Below are positions 9,226-21,183 of a DNA stretch of 21,402 bases, in pieces (positions within the stretch are counted from its first letter, which is position 1; each line of letters opens with the position of its first letter). Source of the DNA: a virus. A program made the translations under genes and the position numbers. Where the stretch lies: IMG/VR virus record IMGVR_UViG_3300025141_000919, positions 1-21,402 of that record; one strand, 5' to 3'. The notes under the pieces were generated by a model. It did not search any database. It saw only the letters and a program-made list of their open reading frames with translations, and was not told where the DNA came from.

Positions 9226-9753
9226 ATGGCACAAGGATTTTGGTCAGACCCTCTAGTAGAACCTAAACGATCATATAGGTGGGTATTATATTTAGGCGGC
9301 ATGCCAACTTGGATTATTAAGACGGTTAAAAAACCATCATTTACTGTTACTGAGAGCCCTCATCAATATTTGAATCACACATTCTATTACCCTGCAAGAG
9401 TTCAGTGGAATACGATTGAGATTACTTTGGCAGATCCTGTGGATCCCGATGCTTCAGATTCAATGTTGGCTCGCTTATTTGCTGCGGGCTATGAATACCC
9501 TCTAGATTCAGCTACTACTACTACGGTTTCTAAAATTAAATCAATTGAAGCTTTGGGCGAAATTAAGATTGTACAGCTTGGGGCAGAAGGCGAAGACATA
9601 GAGACATGGACTTTGACAAATTCTTTTATTACGGCTGTTGATTTCGGAGCCCTAGATTACGCCTCAGATGAAATGGTTAACATTTCTTTAACAATACGTT
9701 ATGATTGGGCTGAGCTTATCGTTCCAGCCGGCCGGGCGATCCCACCGGGTTAA
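9226..9753 (+). CDS. 19: Tail tube protein, gp19-like
   Basis: Hexameric rings of this protein form the inner tail tube through which DNA passes. Evidence: 175 aa (T4 gp19 is 163), location directly after the sheath gene, and the order of strands. An N-terminal 'YRWVLYLGG' strand is followed by 'IIKTVKKPSFTVTES' (T4: 'FTFQCKATALPAG'), the block VQWNTIEITLADPVDP, and a C-terminal part with IKIVQLGAEGEDIETWTLTN and a final VNISLTIRYDWAEL, matching the T4 ending 'FEVTLALDYWE'. GGGAG stands 11 bases before the start. It shares a transcript with the next gene, 19 bases downstream. Confidence 0.88.
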   Translation: MAQGFWSDPLVEPKRSYRWVLYLGGMPTWIIKTVKKPSFTVTESPHQYLNHTFYYPARVQWNTIEITLADPVDPDASDSMLARLFAAGYEYPLDSATTTTVSKIKSIEALGEIKIVQLGAEGEDIETWTLTNSFITAVDFGALDYASDEMVNISLTIRYDWAELIVPAGRAIPPG

Positions 9754-9772: not shown

Positions 9773-10633
9773 ATGACACAGAATAGAAACGAAGAGCGTA
9801 TCGGCTCGATGCCCGGTATCTCTTCTCCGGCGCCTATTGCTGAGCAATCGGGCGCTTCATTTGATTTTTCAGTTCCAACAGAATTTGTTGATTTGCCTTC
9901 AAGGGGTACATTTTATCCCGAAGGCCACCCTTTGCGCAACAAAGAAAGTGTTGAAATACGTTATATGACAGCAAAGGATGAAGATACTTTAACAAACCGC
10001 AGTCTTATTCAAAAGGGAATTGTTTTAGACCGATTAATAAAAAATATTTTAGTTGATAAGATGATCAATGTTAATTCACTTTTGTTGGGCGATAAAAACG
10101 CCATTATTGTTGCTGCAAGATCAACAGGATATGGGAATATGTATGATACACAAGTCACATGTCCGTCTTGTTTTGAGAATAGCGAACAAAGCTTTGATTT
10201 AAATAATTTAAAATTGCAGTTTCCCGACAAGGAGAGGTTAAAAAGTTTAGAAGCAACGAAAAATGATGACGATACATTTTCATTTACATTGCCGAAAACT
10301 AAAGCTGTGGTCAAAGCCAGATTATTATCTGGCGCAGACGAGAAGAAGCTTGAGCAACTTCAAGCAAACAAAAAGAAAAGTAATCTTCCCGAAACACCAA
10401 TAGTTGATCAACTTAGAACTTGCATAGTAGAAGTTAATGGACAAGCAGGAGCATCAAGTGTTAATAAGTTTATTGACGTTATGCCATTGTTTGATGGAAG
10501 ATATTTCCGAAAAATTTATAATAAATTAACTCCAAACGTTGATATGAAGCACGGCTTTCAGTGTCCTGAGTGCGAATATGAAACGGACGTGGAGGTTCCG
10601 CTGACAGCGGACTTTTTTTGGCCTGACCGATAA
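9773..10633 (+). CDS. 26: gp26-family baseplate/tail assembly protein with two CxxC pairs (zero-frame product)
   Basis: Belongs to the T4 gp26-type baseplate family, recognised from FVDLPSRGTFYPEGHPLRNK (residues 38-57), VEIRYMTAKDEDTLTN (60-75) and GYGNMYDTQVTCPSC (119-133). Two CxxC pairs, C130/C133 and C264/C267, could bind one zinc ion. T4 gp26 is a baseplate hub component. In many relatives the gene stands before the tape measure, the position of tail assembly chaperones. The zero-frame product (286 aa) ends FFWPDR. The run of seven Ts just before this stop opens into a second conserved-looking frame without its own start, so a longer frameshift product is likely (see 10605-10811). AGAGGT at 9762-9767 supports the start. 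Confidence 0.8.
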   Translation: MTQNRNEERIGSMPGISSPAPIAEQSGASFDFSVPTEFVDLPSRGTFYPEGHPLRNKESVEIRYMTAKDEDTLTNRSLIQKGIVLDRLIKNILVDKMINVNSLLLGDKNAIIVAARSTGYGNMYDTQVTCPSCFENSEQSFDLNNLKLQFPDKERLKSLEATKNDDDTFSFTLPKTKAVVKARLLSGADEKKLEQLQANKKKSNLPETPIVDQLRTCIVEVNGQAGASSVNKFIDVMPLFDGRYFRKIYNKLTPNVDMKHGFQCPECEYETDVEVPLTADFFWPDR

Positions 10634-10811
10634 ATATATTGAATCTGTTTACGAGCAGTTTTTTGCATTAAAATATCATGGCGGATGGAGCTTTATTGAA
10701 GCATACAATTTGCCAATTAAAATAAGAACTTGGTTTGTACAACGTCTAATAAAAGAAAAAGAAAAAGAAATTGAAGCTGTAGAAAAAGCAAATAAAGGAG
10801 CCAGCAGATAA
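10605..10811 (+). CDS. Frameshift extension of gp26-family gene (gp51/tail-chaperone-like C-terminus)
   Basis: After a TGA at 10602-10604 this frame stays open to TAA at 10809-10811. From GGC at 10620 it reads GLTDKYIESVYEQFFALKYH, then GGWSFIEAYNLPIKIRTWFV and a charged helical end. It contains no ATG or GTG start and no ribosome-binding site, yet it looks like real protein: a 'YHGGWSF.EAYNLPI..R.w....' pattern that I associate with T4-like gp51/chaperone C-termini. The frame is +1 (equivalently -2) relative to the upstream gene, and the two meet at T7 (10613-10619). The fusion would have about 345 residues. The terminator starts within its stop codon. Alternative: an unrelated ORF using a rare start, which I think unlikely. 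Confidence 0.7.
   Translation, partial: QRTFFGLTDKYIESVYEQFFALKYHGGWSFIEAYNLPIKIRTWFVQRLIKEKEKEIEAVEKANKGASR
10611..10622 (+). other. Candidate programmed frameshift site (seven-T run)
   Basis: The zero frame reads GAC TTT TTT TGG and stops four codons later. With two Phe codons in P and A sites on seven Ts, tRNA can re-pair perfectly after a -2 slip, or after +1 onto the last TTT. Both lead into the open frame GGC CTG ACC. A -1 slip would hit TGA two codons on (TTG GCC TGA), so only +1 or -2 is productive. Confidence 0.65.
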
Positions 10812-10840
10812 AGGACGCCCAACGAGCGTCCTTTATTTTA
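10810..10840 (+). terminator. Rho-independent terminator after gp26-family gene
   Basis: AAAGGACGC (10810-10818) pairs perfectly with GCGTCCTTT (10826-10834) around the loop CCAACGA and is followed by ATTTTA. The stem begins inside the stop codon of the frameshifted frame, so it closes the tube/gp26 unit. Confidence 0.85.
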
Positions 10841-10875: not shown

Positions 10876-11208
10876 ATGGAAAAACTCCCAATTATTGAAA
10901 TTGATTTAGGTTTTGCAAAAAAAGAAGTGCTGAATGAAAATTTATATAAATTGTTCACGGGCGCTGTAGGGTTATTTTTAAAGGGCATTGGCATTGATAT
11001 TGACAAACTAGCAATTCCGGTAAGATTAACCGGCACCAAGAAAGAGATTGATGCTTTAAAGAGAGCTTTAAACAACTCTAAGCAATATATTAAAACTGCA
11101 AATATGCACGGCGCGGATAGTGATGAGGCGGCTTCAAAGAAGAAAGAGCTTTTAACTGCTGTTTCAAACTTTGAAGAAGTAACAAAAATCAAATGGCCAG
11201 TTAAATAG
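10876..11208 (+). CDS. Small unknown protein before tape measure, 110 aa
   Basis: I do not recognise this family. AAGGAG at 10861-10866 gives a clear start. The product is lysine-rich and mostly helical: KLPIIEIDLGFAKKEVLN, a hydrophobic patch GAVGLFLKGIGIDIDKLAIP, then amphipathic helices (KKEIDALKRALNNSKQYIK; SKKKELLTAVSNFEEVTK). It has no signal peptide, and the hydrophobic patch is too short and charged to be a sure membrane segment. It is the first gene of the tape-measure operon and ends 12 bases before the tape measure start. A role as tail assembly partner of the tape measure, or as a minor tail component, is inferred from position only. Confidence 0.75.
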   Translation: MEKLPIIEIDLGFAKKEVLNENLYKLFTGAVGLFLKGIGIDIDKLAIPVRLTGTKKEIDALKRALNNSKQYIKTANMHGADSDEAASKKKELLTAVSNFEEVTKIKWPVK

Positions 11209-11220
11209 GAACTTTAAGAT

Positions 11221-13584
11221 ATGACAGACGAAAATTCACAACTTGGCCCAGAAAAAGTAACACAACTAAAGAAGGAAGTGGACAACCTTGTTGCGGCTCT
11301 TAATATTGCCGGCAGCACCTTTGCAGATTTTAAAAAAGAGGCCGACAAAGCGATGAGCCAAGCGGCCATCAAGGCCGAGGCCATGGCCAATAGTATGGGA
11401 ACCATGTTGGACTATTCCAAAGAGGTTGAACTAACACTTACGGCCCAAGCAAGAGCTTATAAGGCCGCCAACGACGCGCTGGATGAAGAAATAAAAAACA
11501 TTGAGAAAAAGCTCAAGGCAAATAACATCGAGCAACTACAGGCCGACCGCGAGATCAGCACACTCAAAGAGAAGAAAAAACATTTAAAGGATATACACGA
11601 TCAAGAGGAATCAATAGGCCGGGCGACACTACATGGCGCCGATGCTGCTGAAAGTTTCTTAGAATCTCTGGGCCTACAACGAAAAGAGCAGGAAGGAATT
11701 CTAGGCATACTCGCAAAATCAAAACAAACACAGGAAGGTTTTGGCAGAGCGCTTGGGAAGTCGGTCAAGTCTGGTAAAATGTTTGCAAACGCTATGCAGA
11801 CTGCCGGCGAAGGAATAACACAGGCCAGCATTGCAATGATGCATCTTGGTGCACGCGGTGGAGAGTTGTGGGGCGTCAAAATGCCGGGTTTGGTTGAAGC
11901 AATTAAAGACTCGTTGACGCTGCCTGCGGAATTATATCGTTCATATGGTAATATGGAAGAATATAACGATATGATTATAGAGAGTAGAAGTGAGTTGGCC
12001 AAGTGGGGTGTAACAGAAAAAGAAGCGGGCAAGGCAATTGCAGAGTTGGCATCGACAATACCAGATTTTAACATAGCCAGCAAAAGCGCTCAAAAGGAGA
12101 TGAGAAATGTCACCACTGCGCTTGAAAAAATGGGATTTGACACCAAAACAACAATTGGAACTCAAGAAAACTTAATTAAGACGCTGGGCATGGCTCCGAA
12201 AGAAGCAGCCAAATACACAAAGAGTTTGGCCGGCTTAAGCAAGCAAATGAAAGTTGGTAATAAGTTTTTCCAAGATATGCAAAGCTCAATGGAACAACTA
12301 GCGGCCTTCACAAAAGACAAGGCAATAAAAGTATTTGAAAAAATGACGACAACCGCTCATACAATGGGCCTTTCCATCGGACAACTTTGGAAGACTGTAG
12401 AGGGGTTTCAAACTTTTGATAGCGCATCACAAAAAGTTGCAGAATTCAATATTGCTCTTGGTGGGCCGTACCTTAATACAATAAAGATGATGAAAGCGGC
12501 TCACGACGAGCCAATAAAAGTAATAGAGCAAATGCAAGATGCGTTTAAAGCGTCTGGCAAGAGTTTGAACGACATGTCGCCCGCAATGGTAAAATACATG
12601 GCCAGCACCATTAACGTAAGCAAGGCGGAATTAAAGAGGATTATGGGTAGCAAAGAGGCGCTCAAAAAGTGGGGAGAAGAACAGAAAAAGTCTGAAAAAA
12701 GACAAGAAAGCCTCAATAAAATGGTACTAAAAGCCCAAGACATCTTTGTGGAGCTTACTAATGTGATACGTGAGGTTTTTTTCGAAAATGACGACTTTAT
12801 TAAACAAATGAAAGATATGATTAAAAGCACCGGCGCTTGGATTAAAGAAAACAAGTGGTTGATTGACACATTTATATATTTTGTTAAACCACCCGGTGCG
12901 CTTCTTGCTCTTATGGCCGGCGGCATCCTTGCGATAACCGGAAAACTGCTTCTGATGAACATACAGATAAGGGCCATGTCCGGTGGCGTCCACGGCGTTG
13001 GTACTGGGCTGTCGAGTGTGTTTGGTGGTAGTGGCTTGTCGAACACCATGGGGGGAATGGGAAAAATGATGAAGGGCCTTGGCGGGATTGCAATGCTTGC
13101 CGGCACTGCATTTAGTGTTCTTTCTGACCTTTCGAACGCCGACACAAGGAAAAAGAAAAGAGTGGCACAGGGCGGCGCGGGCGGCGCACTTGCCGGCGCC
13201 GCCACAGGCGCCGCAATTGGATCGTTTTTTCCGGGCGTTGGAACTGTTCTTGGCGCCGGCGTCGGTGCCGCGGTCGGCCATTTCACCGGTAAAGCCGTAG
13301 CAGAAGATGTCCCACCGATTTCGGGCGCAACGGCGATAATAACGCCAAAAGGGCCGATTGGTTTAAGCCCCGGAGATATAGTGTCTGCTGGGCGTACCGG
13401 TGGCTCAATGGATAAGGGTTTTAAATCTTTAGCAGGGACACAAAACAAAACGAACGAATTATTACAAGCGCTGCTTAATAAAGATAGCAATGTTTACATG
13501 GACGGCGACAAAATAACGAGAAAGGTAAATGGTAAGAATACGCGAAACGCTATGTACGGCGATCACAGTACCGCCTTAAGCTAA
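11221..13584 (+). CDS. Tail tape measure protein (T4 gp29 role)
   Basis: Predicted to set tail length and lie in the tube lumen before ejection. The 787 residues are mainly helical. The N-terminal 150 form charged coiled coils (IKNIEKKLKANNIEQLQ). A central helical region follows, then hydrophobic segments near residues 557-583 (GALLALMAGGILAITG) and a Gly/Ala-rich stretch near 651-694 (ALAGAATGAAIGSFFPGVG). The end reads NVYMDGDKITRKVNGK, a pattern common at tape measure C-termini. Its place after the tube and the frameshifted chaperone-like gene, and before the baseplate genes, supports the role. At about 0.15 nm per residue the tail would be near 118 nm. Direct similarity to gp29 is not evident to me, so I give no symbol. 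Confidence 0.85.
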   Translation: MTDENSQLGPEKVTQLKKEVDNLVAALNIAGSTFADFKKEADKAMSQAAIKAEAMANSMGTMLDYSKEVELTLTAQARAYKAANDALDEEIKNIEKKLKANNIEQLQADREISTLKEKKKHLKDIHDQEESIGRATLHGADAAESFLESLGLQRKEQEGILGILAKSKQTQEGFGRALGKSVKSGKMFANAMQTAGEGITQASIAMMHLGARGGELWGVKMPGLVEAIKDSLTLPAELYRSYGNMEEYNDMIIESRSELAKWGVTEKEAGKAIAELASTIPDFNIASKSAQKEMRNVTTALEKMGFDTKTTIGTQENLIKTLGMAPKEAAKYTKSLAGLSKQMKVGNKFFQDMQSSMEQLAAFTKDKAIKVFEKMTTTAHTMGLSIGQLWKTVEGFQTFDSASQKVAEFNIALGGPYLNTIKMMKAAHDEPIKVIEQMQDAFKASGKSLNDMSPAMVKYMASTINVSKAELKRIMGSKEALKKWGEEQKKSEKRQESLNKMVLKAQDIFVELTNVIREVFFENDDFIKQMKDMIKSTGAWIKENKWLIDTFIYFVKPPGALLALMAGGILAITGKLLLMNIQIRAMSGGVHGVGTGLSSVFGGSGLSNTMGGMGKMMKGLGGIAMLAGTAFSVLSDLSNADTRKKKRVAQGGAGGALAGAATGAAIGSFFPGVGTVLGAGVGAAVGHFTGKAVAEDVPPISGATAIITPKGPIGLSPGDIVSAGRTGGSMDKGFKSLAGTQNKTNELLQALLNKDSNVYMDGDKITRKVNGKNTRNAMYGDHSTALS

Positions 13585-17870: not shown

Positions 17871-19160
17871 ATGGTATATAGAACTGGAAAAGAAACTAGC
17901 CCCCTTGCGCTTGCTGCAAAACGGATTCTTTATGAGGTTACTGCGGTGCCTTCTATTTCCGGTGTCCGCGTGTTTGAAGGGTTGTCTCGATTTTATGGTC
18001 TTAAGAATTCCGATGATAATTATGTAATACCAAATCCGGAATATATTAAACATGTGAGTAGTTCAGATACGGTTTTAGCTTTAGATTTTGTCGCTGCAGC
18101 CTTCGAAGACTTCCAGAAATTATATGTAGAAATGATACAGTCTGGGAAAGCTTCGAATGAGTCGGTCTATACAAATATAATTTTTGAGCCATTCGAAGGG
18201 TGGTATAATTTTGAAGAGCAATATAGCCATAACATTCAGACTCTTATAGATCAAATTAATAATATTTTTTTAAGCGAGCACAAACAACAAAAGAAAATCA
18301 AGAATATAGATGATTATATTAAATCATTTATGAATTTCATTCCTTTGCTAAGCTTATTAAAGATAACTAGGGCTAAAATGTTATCTAATGTTTTAACAAA
18401 GAGGGGCGCGTCAGGGCTTATAATAAAACTAGTAGATGAAAATGAAAATGATGATCAAACTAAAGTAGACGAATATATAAACGATCTAAATTTCAAAACT
18501 GTTGTAACTCTTGCCGAACAAACTGGATTTTATGTAAGTAAAAATTCTCCATGGACTTTGGTTGCAAACTTAGGATCTCCGTTGATGAAGTTTTATATGC
18601 AACCGGATGAATATGAAGAGGAAACTAAAAAGATTTTTGATGATTTGTTTTTAAAAGAACAACAGAAGGCGGCAAAAGATAATATTCCGATGAATCCCGA
18701 TACTACTGAAAAATTAAGAGAACAAGCACAAAAAGAAGCAAAAAAGAAAATTATGTCAACAAAGTTTCCTATAGAAGATATATTTGAAAAATATTATTTT
18801 GAAACAGCTTTCGCTGATTTTAATACCATTAAAAACATGTTTTATTATGGGTATACTTCGTTTTTTAATATTTACCCAGAAGCAAGAAATGTAAAATTTT
18901 GTCCAATCGCACAGAAAACTATTCAAGTATATACGCCAAGAAAATATATCTCTGAAGAAGAATATGATCAAAAATTTGATGATAAATTTTTCTTAAAAGC
19001 ATTTCTTGTTATCAAGAACTACGAAGTTGGTAAAATATTTTCGAAAAGGCAGATGCAGGAGCATCTCAAACAAATCTATTTAACCAAGAAAAGAGTTGAC
19101 ACATCCGCGGCAATAATGTATATTAATAGTATATTTAAAGCCTATATGGACTCTGTGTGA
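17871..19160 (+). CDS. Conserved-looking unknown virion protein, 429 aa
   Basis: I cannot name a function. The sequence resembles uncharacterised structural proteins of marine T4-like phages as I remember them: a 'VLALDFVAAAFEDFQKLYVE' helix early, GASGLIIKLV, TGFYVSKNSPWTLVANLGSP near residues 222-241, and FEKYYFETAFADFNTIKNMF near 303-322, followed by a cysteine in VKFCPIAQ. It is rich in aromatic and charged residues, largely helical, with no signal peptide or transmembrane segment. AGGAA overlaps the hub stop. It is the last tail-type gene of the operon, and its stop overlaps the GTG start of the DNA polymerase (GTGA), so the two are coupled. A baseplate or tail-associated role is inferred from position. 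Confidence 0.75.
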   Translation: MVYRTGKETSPLALAAKRILYEVTAVPSISGVRVFEGLSRFYGLKNSDDNYVIPNPEYIKHVSSSDTVLALDFVAAAFEDFQKLYVEMIQSGKASNESVYTNIIFEPFEGWYNFEEQYSHNIQTLIDQINNIFLSEHKQQKKIKNIDDYIKSFMNFIPLLSLLKITRAKMLSNVLTKRGASGLIIKLVDENENDDQTKVDEYINDLNFKTVVTLAEQTGFYVSKNSPWTLVANLGSPLMKFYMQPDEYEEETKKIFDDLFLKEQQKAAKDNIPMNPDTTEKLREQAQKEAKKKIMSTKFPIEDIFEKYYFETAFADFNTIKNMFYYGYTSFFNIYPEARNVKFCPIAQKTIQVYTPRKYISEEEYDQKFDDKFFLKAFLVIKNYEVGKIFSKRQMQEHLKQIYLTKKRVDTSAAIMYINSIFKAYMDSV

Positions 19161-20338
19161 TTTTTCAATCTTTAGACAATAAAAATAAATGTAAAGACAT
19201 CTATTGTAATAACAAGATTCACAAAAAAATACCAGTCGATTTGACCGGCACATGGGATTATGTTGATGTGCCCTATGATATAATGTATGCAAAGCTGTAT
19301 TGTGGCGGCAAATCCATTGAAGATGTTTGTCCCGATCATTTGAGAAAGCAGTGGCTCGATGCAAGCCAGAGGCTTAAAGCATATTTAAATTCTTTTATGC
19401 AAGCGAAAATTTCACTAGAAGAGCACTGTTTTTACGACTTAGTGCCACAACATTTCCTTTTGGATTTTTTTGAAGTGAAGAATGAAATAACAAAACATGT
19501 TTTTGACAATTATAAGCGTCCTGAAAATTATGATTTTTTGTTGCAACTTACAAAAATTGCGGAAGACATTAAAAATAGACCTTTAAAGCTAAAAATAAGC
19601 AATTTAAACAACTTAGGACATCAGCTAGCAACTAGAAACTTTTTAAAGCGTCTAAAAGGAGCAGAAAAGCGCGTTAAATATAATATTTATGGGACGAAAA
19701 CGGGCAGGCTAACAACAGAGCCAAAATCTTTTCCTATTTTGACGCTAAAAAAGGAATATCGTACCATTTTAGAACCAAATAACGATTTGTATGTAGAGTT
19801 GGACTTTAATGCGGCTGAGCTAAGAACGCTCTTAGCTTTGTGTGATAAAGAGCAGCCAAAAGAAGACATACATGAGTGGAATGCTAAAAACGTATTTCGT
19901 GGACTACAATCACGTAGTGAAGCCAAGGAGCGTATTTTTGCTTGGTTGTATAATCCAGACTCTAAAGATTATTTAGCCAACAGAGCTTATGATAGAACAA
20001 GCATTAAAGAAAAGTATTGGGATGGTAAAATAGTAACAACGCCATTTGGCAGAAAAATAGAGGCGGATGAATTTCATGCTTTAAACTACTTGATTCAAAG
20101 CACAACGGCAGACATGGTATTACGTCAGTTGATTAAAGTTTATGAATTGCTCAAAGAACATAAGTCGCATATAGCATTTGTGATACATGATTCGTTGGTG
20201 ATCGATCTAGCGAAAGAAGACAAACCTTTGTTGAAAGATATTTTTAATGTTTTTTCGAAAACTGATTTGGGAGAGTTTTTAATTTCAGTTAAGGCCGGCA
20301 AAAATTTTGGTCAAATGAAGGAAATAAAATGGACATAA
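19157..20338 (+). CDS. polA: Compact family A DNA polymerase without exonuclease domain
   Basis: Template-directed DNA synthesis. Family A motifs occur in order: K181-TGRLT (182-186), motif A L215-DFNAAELRTLLAL with catalytic D216, motif B R253-SEAKERIFAWLY with R253, K257, F261 and Y265 at the spacing of R754/K758/F762/Y766 of E. coli Pol I, N310-YLIQSTTAD like 'N..QGTAAD', and motif C H344-D345-S346. The Glu usually following the catalytic Asp is Ser. Phe at the 762 position predicts discrimination against dideoxynucleotides. At 393 aa there is room for thumb, palm and fingers only, and the fingers are short (Y265 to Q314 is 49 residues against 83 in Pol I). The GTG start overlaps the preceding stop as GTGA, with no clear SD. 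T4 itself uses a family B polymerase. Confidence 0.9.
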   Translation: MIFQSLDNKNKCKDIYCNNKIHKKIPVDLTGTWDYVDVPYDIMYAKLYCGGKSIEDVCPDHLRKQWLDASQRLKAYLNSFMQAKISLEEHCFYDLVPQHFLLDFFEVKNEITKHVFDNYKRPENYDFLLQLTKIAEDIKNRPLKLKISNLNNLGHQLATRNFLKRLKGAEKRVKYNIYGTKTGRLTTEPKSFPILTLKKEYRTILEPNNDLYVELDFNAAELRTLLALCDKEQPKEDIHEWNAKNVFRGLQSRSEAKERIFAWLYNPDSKDYLANRAYDRTSIKEKYWDGKIVTTPFGRKIEADEFHALNYLIQSTTADMVLRQLIKVYELLKEHKSHIAFVIHDSLVIDLAKEDKPLLKDIFNVFSKTDLGEFLISVKAGKNFGQMKEIKWT

Positions 20339-21183
20339 TTGGATTCGGCGGCGCCGGCTGCAACGTTGCAAAAACGTTTAAAGACTATCCTCAGTATAAG
20401 ATTCATTATATAGACGTAGGCCTGCGCGGCGCTGATAGCTGTTCTCTTTTAAGAGCTAGCACCATGGAAGAGGCAGAAACAAATGTGCCAAAATTTTCAA
20501 AACTTGTTAAAAAACTAAAAGGTGAAGTTGTTTTTATATGTGCCGGCGCAGGAGTAAGCAGTGGTTCAATTTTAGGAACTTTAGAACAATTCAAAGACTT
20601 GCCGATAACTGTGATCTACATTAAGCCAGATTATGATCTTTTGAGCGAAAAAGAAAAACAAAGGGAAAGAGTTGTGCATGGAGTATTACAACAATTTGCT
20701 AGAACAGGGTTATTAAAGCGCATGTATTTGTTCGATAATGCAAAAATAGCTGAGATACTGGGTGGGCTTTCGATAGTTGAATATCACCCTAAAATCAATC
20801 AAATGATCAGTAATTCTTTTCATATGCTGAATTATTTTAAAAATATAGATTCCATTATGACAAATATGTCAGATCCTCAAGAAATTAACAGAATTTCAAC
20901 GGTTGGAATTTACAATTTTGAGGACGAGGCCGAAAAATATTTTTATGACATTGTAAATCCGCGAGAAAAGCATTTTTACTTTGCCTTTAATGAAGAAACG
21001 CTAAGTAAGGAAAAAACCCTTTTAAATAAAATAAGCGAACAGATAAAAAGTGCTGGACAATCTGAGTTTACTGCTGTATCATATGATATAACAGCGACGA
21101 CATATGAGGAAAATTTCGCATATATCGAAGCTCATACAAATTTCATTCAGGGCGAAAAAGTGGTTGACAAAAGCTCAGAATAG
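20329..21183 (+). CDS. Divergent tubulin/FtsZ-superfamily protein (phage cytoskeletal GTPase candidate)
   Basis: Likely a GTP-binding, filament-forming or FtsZ-interacting protein. The N-terminus MDIIGFGGAGCNVAKTF matches the FtsZ first loop (GVGGAGGNAV). Residues 69-80 (FICAGAGVSSGS) align with FtsZ FVTAGMGGGTGT, keeping G75, S78, G79 and S80 but losing two glycines. Further parallels are ITVIYIKPD (93-101, like 'VVTKPF'), FDNAKIAEIL (135-144, like 'PNDRLL'), a helix with N157 where FtsZ/tubulin have a base-binding Asp/Asn, and D182-x-x-E185 like the tubulin T7 loop 'NVDLTE'. At 284 aa it is somewhat shorter than PhuZ. It overlaps the polymerase stop by 10 bases (ATGGACATAA). Its last codons contain the -35 box of gene 32. 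The call is from motifs only. GTPase activity is unproven and the altered G-box is a real caveat. Confidence 0.65.
   Translation: MDIIGFGGAGCNVAKTFKDYPQYKIHYIDVGLRGADSCSLLRASTMEEAETNVPKFSKLVKKLKGEVVFICAGAGVSSGSILGTLEQFKDLPITVIYIKPDYDLLSEKEKQRERVVHGVLQQFARTGLLKRMYLFDNAKIAEILGGLSIVEYHPKINQMISNSFHMLNYFKNIDSIMTNMSDPQEINRISTVGIYNFEDEAEKYFYDIVNPREKHFYFAFNEETLSKEKTLLNKISEQIKSAGQSEFTAVSYDITATTYEENFAYIEAHTNFIQGEKVVDKSSE

Follow-up and report, generated by a model that had tools for sequence, protein, structure and literature searches.

The window analysed here is a 21.4-kb virus record, and gene order and coordinates refer to it unless a locus label is given; the parts described between 9226 and 13584 are on the + strand. 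Its genes encode, in this order, a major head protein, a tail sheath, a tail tube, a gp26-family protein, a small protein and a tape measure protein. The tail tube gene (9226..9753; PHROG 4542 tail tube, 1.5e-21) is followed by a zero-frame ORF of 286 aa with two CxxC pairs (9773..10633), which matches PF12322 (T4_baseplate, E 3e-15; 56.9 bits, above the family cut-off of 24.5) and PHROG 150 (baseplate hub, 8.5e-19), and which we consider the putative short form of a tail assembly chaperone. The tape measure gene (11221..13584, 787 aa; PHROG 167 tail length tape measure, 1.7e-13) is preceded by a small gene from the ORF list (10876..11208, 110 aa), for which no significant match to PHROG or Pfam profiles was found. 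The chaperone-type gene is therefore located between the tail tube and tape measure genes with one small gene intervening, as in the G/GT type of arrangement. Elsewhere in the window we observed a DNA polymerase A family protein of just 393 aa with a GTG start (19157-20338), and a glycine-rich protein of 284 aa (20329-21183; start MDIIGFGGAGCNVAKTF) whose N-terminus resembles nucleotide-binding, possibly FtsZ/tubulin-like, proteins; the latter has no PHROG match, and its Pfam match is at chance level only.

The zero frame ends with GCG GAC TTT TTT TGG CCT GAC CGA TAA, so that its stop (10631..10633) lies four codons past GAC TTT TTT TGG. The +1 frame is open over 10605-10811; from GGC at 10620 it provides 63 sense codons followed by a stop at 10809-10811 (the tail, 10620..10811), and its earliest ATG, GTG or TTG is the TTG at 10710, which is within the conserved part. 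A 9-bp terminator-like hairpin with a T-rich tail (AAAGGACGC-CCAACGA-GCGTCCTTT, 10810..10839) begins within the stop codon of the tail (it was read directly from the sequence and is absent from the list of our computed hairpin scan). A -1 slip at the junction reaches a TGA after two codons. The original prediction, made from the sequence of the window, had described a 63-codon second frame without a usable start that ends at a terminator, and a -1 slip that meets TGA at once, and these descriptions are accurate. The run of seven Ts (T7) is by itself weak evidence, since the window contains 14 runs of at least seven A/T (the 31-base cassette has a single exact occurrence in the window, as compared to 0 expected); the junction stands out from chance because it is conserved across loci.

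A scan of viral contigs yielded 585 relatives, of which 80 were retrieved, and 80 further ones were obtained via the tail. Conservation was counted over the 164 loci in which both parts were recognised. The tail is found in the +1 frame in 161 of these loci, in the -1 frame in three (L006, L007 and L085) and in frame in none, and the +1-frame tail is strongly conserved at the amino-acid level, which strongly supports the predicted programmed frameshift joining a gp26-family protein to a chaperone-like tail. Dereplication at 90% left 115 +1 loci (these loci share ancestry and are not independent, and p-values are inflated). Comparison of these loci establishes the two frames and the site: (U/C)UU UGG is found at the identical codon position in 115/115, and the zero-frame stop is 4-9 codons past the P-site codon in all of them. 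The P codon (10616-10618 in the window) is TTT in 111 loci and CTT in four, the A codon (10619-10621) is TGG in 115/115, and the +1 codon (10620-10622) is GGC in 109.

Codon choice around the site is highly biased. Phe at the P site is encoded by TTT in 111 loci and by TTC in none (background 1111:452), and an Asp codon preceding TTTTTTT is GAC in 69 loci and GAT in none, as compared to 631:1413 in the rest of the gene, showing that the -1 heptamer U_UUU_UUU is avoided. The codon 5' of TTTTTTT never ends in T, and the two cases of GAT carry TTC, which breaks the run. The expected conservation of both frames was confirmed, and that of the T run holds for the 105 loci with T7; the remaining 10 contain only three or four Ts (TTCTTTT or TTTCTTT), with TTC TTT TGG in six loci and TTT CTT TGG in four. 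All variants permit +1 re-pairing of YUU on UUU, and the TTC and CTT variants exclude both a -2 re-pairing and the need for a T7 run. The +1 frame with a compatible site is also found in phages, isolated or assembled, whose gp26 proteins are distant relatives, including Flavobacterium phage immuto (TTT CTT TGG), Microcystis phage Mel-JY01 and Rhodothermus phage RM378 (both TTT TTT TGG), and further in Bacillus SP-15, Listeria LIS04, Streptococcus GXN1 and jumbo phage LR756508. Among the annotated phage records examined, none has the junction marked as a frameshift.

Synonymous constraint is elevated near the P codon, between -33 and +13. In the window, an internal Shine-Dalgarno sequence GGAGGT (10591..10596, i.e., -25 to -20 relative to the P-site codon) is followed by a hairpin TCCGC-TGACA-GCGGA (10597..10611) and then by the slip site TTT TTT TGG C (10613..10622), and the comparison shows that both upstream elements are conserved. 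For the Shine-Dalgarno sequence, Glu at -24 is encoded by GAG in 81/81 loci and Pro at -18 by CCG in 87/113, and the mean anti-Shine-Dalgarno pairing over -28..-17 is -7.2 kcal/mol versus -3.8 kcal/mol after synonymous randomisation. The hairpin has a minimum free energy (MFE) of -7.05 versus -2.51 in synonymous-randomised sequences (mean Z -2.86 over 115 loci, and -3.04 without the Shine-Dalgarno sequence). RNA structure windows farther upstream and downstream in the +1 clade gave little or no signal, with at most weak structure immediately past the site (Z -0.86 at +10..+69, and -0.01 to -0.33 elsewhere). Two layouts were observed, with GGAGG ending at -21 (75 loci) or AGGAGG ending at -27 (19 loci, several of which have a longer hairpin). 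The Shine-Dalgarno sequence and the hairpin co-occur (76/23 versus 2/14); the former is below the cut-off in 16 and the latter in 37 of the 115 loci. Fixed-register covariation is modest, and exceeds 1000 shuffles in the GGAGG (-21) layout. The architecture is repeated in LR756508 (AGGAGGUG, 7-bp hairpin, UUU C) and in L285 (AGGAGGUC, 8-bp hairpin, UUUUUUUGG). Both the Shine-Dalgarno sequence and the hairpin are thus under selection at synonymous sites.

In the window the linear spacer between the Shine-Dalgarno sequence and the P-site codon is 19 nt, of which the hairpin occupies all but four (C TTT). Published Shine-Dalgarno spacings are 3 nt for +1 and 9–14 nt for -1 frameshifting (PMC5009743), and the linear distance (~20 nt) matches neither optimum unless the hairpin is counted out. 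The hairpin may act by shortening this distance, or by zippering or pulling the mRNA. The internal Shine-Dalgarno sequence, the upstream hairpin and the -1 counterpart described below all go beyond the original prediction.

All 28 aligned tails match PF20546 (DUF6760; best E 1.9e-5). A profile of the window tail matches cyanophage gp51 weakly (55 columns, E 5.6e-4, Prob 30) and cyanophage gp51 matches the T4 gp51 C-terminus (E 7e-8); the window tail profile gave no match to the T4 gp51 C-terminus. By its position, the tail corresponds to the T4-type 'gp51', with which it also agrees in length. Of the two PF12322 genes in T4, gp26 stops where the domain stops, and gp51 consists of PF12322 (1-201) plus 48 aa. 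Both are classed as hub assembly chaperones, gp51 being required yet absent from the particle (PMC3004832). The zero-frame protein was folded alone (model pLDDT 85.6), and the top three PDB matches of the model, covering residues ~23-129, are 3fgx (Z 6.2), 3klu (YqbN, 5.6) and 2ob9 (HK97 tail assembly chaperone, 5.5), where Z below 8 may reflect a common arrangement. We take 3fgx and 3klu to be phage chaperone-like proteins, and the matches of the predicted model to chaperone folds are only suggestive.

DUF6760 is also found in two bacterial genomes, in both after a sheath, a tube and a short ORF. One is a contractile-injection-like cluster (L287:1145-1677) made up of a sheath, a tube, a short ORF, DUF6760 and a second tube; G_GGA_AAG (presumably the lambda heptamer) is in phase at the end of the short ORF, and DUF6760 is in the -1 frame with no start codon before it. 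In the related cluster (L288:1456-2009) DUF6760 again lies in the -1 frame, here with TGATG as a possible start of its own. Plasmid searches found nothing.

Cyanophage-type phages have gp26 followed by a 'gp51' of ~57 aa, and the heptamer U_UUU_UUC is in phase in 79 of 81 such loci. Dereplication left 61 loci, in all of which the -1 frame of the tail is open across the slip and the zero-frame stop is at the same place; an ATG before +45 is missing from 27 of them, and 17 lack any ATG, GTG or TTG between the slip and +45. Structure is found downstream (9–69 nt; -12.1 versus -6.5, Z -2.63) and is absent upstream (Z -0.09), and the Shine-Dalgarno sequence is ~9 nt upstream. A -1 slip also fits KVP40 (GAT TTT TTC) and pelagiphage HTVC008M (AGT TTT TTT TAA); in the latter (L295:3367-3504) the annotated gp51 begins at an internal Met and loses conserved residues, and the -1 frame gives the full tail. 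The homologues annotated with a separate gene leave the predicted frameshift standing, as the cyanophage and KVP40 'gp51' genes keep a conserved slippery run and many have no start codon, rather than being ATG-started genes without a conserved run. The placement of structure in the +1 and -1 types is mirror-image, which is our strongest argument that both types are ribosomal.

Two near-identical contigs of one phage (L006:4840-4880 and L007:5830-5870) contain the -1 heptamer within a run of eight Ts (GAT TTT TTT TGG). Their tail is in the -1 frame, and the usual Shine-Dalgarno sequence and hairpin are absent; this lineage appears to have switched naturally from +1 to -1, and an assembly error could also account for the eight-T run. 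In Pseudomonas phage Paride of the PA5oct group (L089:3780-4020), an unannotated tail is open in the -1 frame behind T_TTT_TTC after a gp26-like gene. Two PF12322-like genes are present in Campylobacter phage NCTC12673 (L203:3864-4295), and the second seems to carry its tail in frame, as in the gp26/gp51 pair of T4.

Programmed frameshifting as such is very likely at this junction. The reading we favour, to which we assign a probability of about 0.76 on the basis of sequence comparison, is that the gene makes two tail-assembly chaperones by a ribosomal +1 slip; such skipping of one base by ribosomes, at a fixed spot, is very probable for a large group of marine T4-type viruses. In the window, the majority of ribosomes would terminate at 10631 and produce the 286-aa short form, and a fraction would shift +1 with Phe-tRNA on UUU (10616-10618) and UGG awaiting in the A site. 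The tRNA would re-pair on the overlapping UUU and GGC would be decoded next, giving a long form of ~345 aa with the junction ...ADFF-GLTDKYIESVYEQFF.... The conserved upstream elements (GGAGGU, separated from the P-site codon by 19 nt, and the hairpin) probably set the direction: with the hairpin folded, the effective Shine-Dalgarno spacing would be ~4 nt, near the 3 nt favouring +1, and the hairpin would impede backward slippage or draw the mRNA forward. The short and long forms would then chaperone the tape measure protein, as gpG/gpGT in lambda.

We infer that the ribosome slips rather than the polymerase. The main rival, which we consider unlikely, is stem-loop-driven transcriptional slippage, in which, with the hairpin formed inside the exit channel of RNA polymerase, the transcript loses one of the seven Us and normal translation enters the +1 frame. 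The hairpin is indeed immediately 5' of the T run and was flagged as terminator-like, and a published Roseiflexus insertion sequence uses such a stem-loop and omits one base (PMC5009743). However, the 10 loci (of 115) with T runs of three or four keep the +1 tail and as a group retain the hairpin (mean Z -2.63), and LR756508 has TTTCTATTC. TTC is tolerated one codon upstream (six loci) and never at the P codon (0), although the latter would leave a longer T run; moreover, the conserved Shine-Dalgarno sequence has no role in polymerase slippage, and the -1 relatives bear ribosomal signals (U_UUU_UUC, G_GGA_AAG).

That the tail is a separate small gene, translated without fusion from an unusual start codon or by re-initiation, is very improbable. 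The internal Shine-Dalgarno sequence is close by and several cyanophage gp51 genes contain an ATG, but the +1 clade has no conserved start codon, the ATG of the common CGATGA context falls in another frame, conservation of the tail starts at the first +1 codon, and no ATG, GTG or TTG is available between the slip and +45 in the 17 cyanophage loci mentioned above. The original prediction had left open whether the slip is +1 or -2; +1 is supported, and a -2 ribosomal slip on the T run, as in phage Mu and with one extra Phe, is more doubtful still. In T7 loci it would lead into the same frame as +1, but in the six TTC TTT TGG and four TTT CTT TGG loci it would put the Phe or Leu anticodon on UCU or UUC, and these loci keep the +1 tail, on which ground -2 slippage was rejected. 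A sequencing error, to which a homopolymer such as T7 is open, or a dead gene has a negligible probability given conservation in more than 160 loci from many samples plus isolated phages; conservation was likewise the ground on which a chance ORF and a separate gene were rejected.

Part of this picture is already published. Vladimirov, Gautam and Davidson (2022, Virology 566:9) named T4 gp26/gp51 short and long tail assembly chaperones, T4 having a short gene and a longer fusion gene (as cited in PMC10885494, the PRFect paper), and, according to the phage Adele paper (PMC12846349), reported -1 signals of the poly-T type in T4-like relatives. As far as these citing papers convey it, that study precedes us on both the chaperone role of the gp26/gp51 family and the poly-T -1 sites in relatives, and the suggestion that the window newly extends frameshifted chaperones to tails of the T4 type has been overtaken. 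In the literature, with Vladimirov 2022 represented by the papers that cite it, neither the +1 version nor its signals were found described. What is new is the +1 direction, opposite to the usual one, the cassette of Shine-Dalgarno sequence, hairpin and slip site, the conservation of this cassette, and the change of direction inside a single gene family. We give about an even chance to a further reading, a hitherto undescribed kind of +1 cassette in which an intervening hairpin would cut the distance from an internal Shine-Dalgarno sequence to the shift codon, and in which phages of one gene family would switch between +1 and -1 by shifting the structured element from the 5' side of the shared Phe-Phe codons to their 3' side and by gaining or losing a single T.

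To our knowledge, not many natural +1 frameshifts that occur on a sense codon in the A site have been described from bacteria and phages, and the signals behind them are ill defined; the authors of a prediction tool from 2024 note that there is no known general +1 motif (PMC10885494). The +1 site is widespread, short and defined at the nucleotide level, and it has natural -1 counterparts at the same position; with such pairs, the rules of slippage direction become testable in one gene. The frameshift could also account for the resemblance of cyanophage and vibriophage 'gp51' to a truncated T4 gp51 (PMC3037559). For annotators, the site shows where the missing C-terminal domain lies.

We finally compared the junction with known systems. 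A 2016 review describes G-T frameshifting as conserved in long-tailed phages, with T4 excepted. Like T4 gp26/gp51, the window has a PF12322 zero-frame part, putative short and long forms, and a tail placed as the gp51 part beyond PF12322; unlike T4, which uses two genes, it would use one gene and one frameshift (+1). It shares with the gp26/gp51 of cyanophages, pelagiphages and KVP40 a junction after FF codons, the order of the parts and a zero-frame stop close behind, whereas their tail is in the -1 frame at U_UUU_UUC, with a Shine-Dalgarno spacing of 9 nt and structure downstream.

In lambda (gpG/gpGT), the chaperone gene is upstream of the tape measure gene and a frameshift near its 3' end adds a C-terminal domain. 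The same holds for the window as judged by comparison of loci, but lambda shifts -1 and the window probably +1. As in the stem-loop-mediated transcriptional slippage of Roseiflexus IS630, a hairpin is directly 5' of the slippage motif and the outcome is equivalent to the omission of one base; unlike here, where the run is broken in 10/115 loci, IS630 needs a slippage-prone run. Release factor 2 (prfB) is expressed by a +1 frameshift at CUU UGA C. The window resembles it in the (C/U)UU U re-pairing of the shift codon and in the internal Shine-Dalgarno sequence upstream, and differs in that its A site holds the sense codon UGG (115/115) and not a stop, in that its Shine-Dalgarno sequence is 19 nt away with a hairpin between rather than 3 nt (~4 nt only if the predicted hairpin is folded), and in that its frameshift product would be a longer variant.
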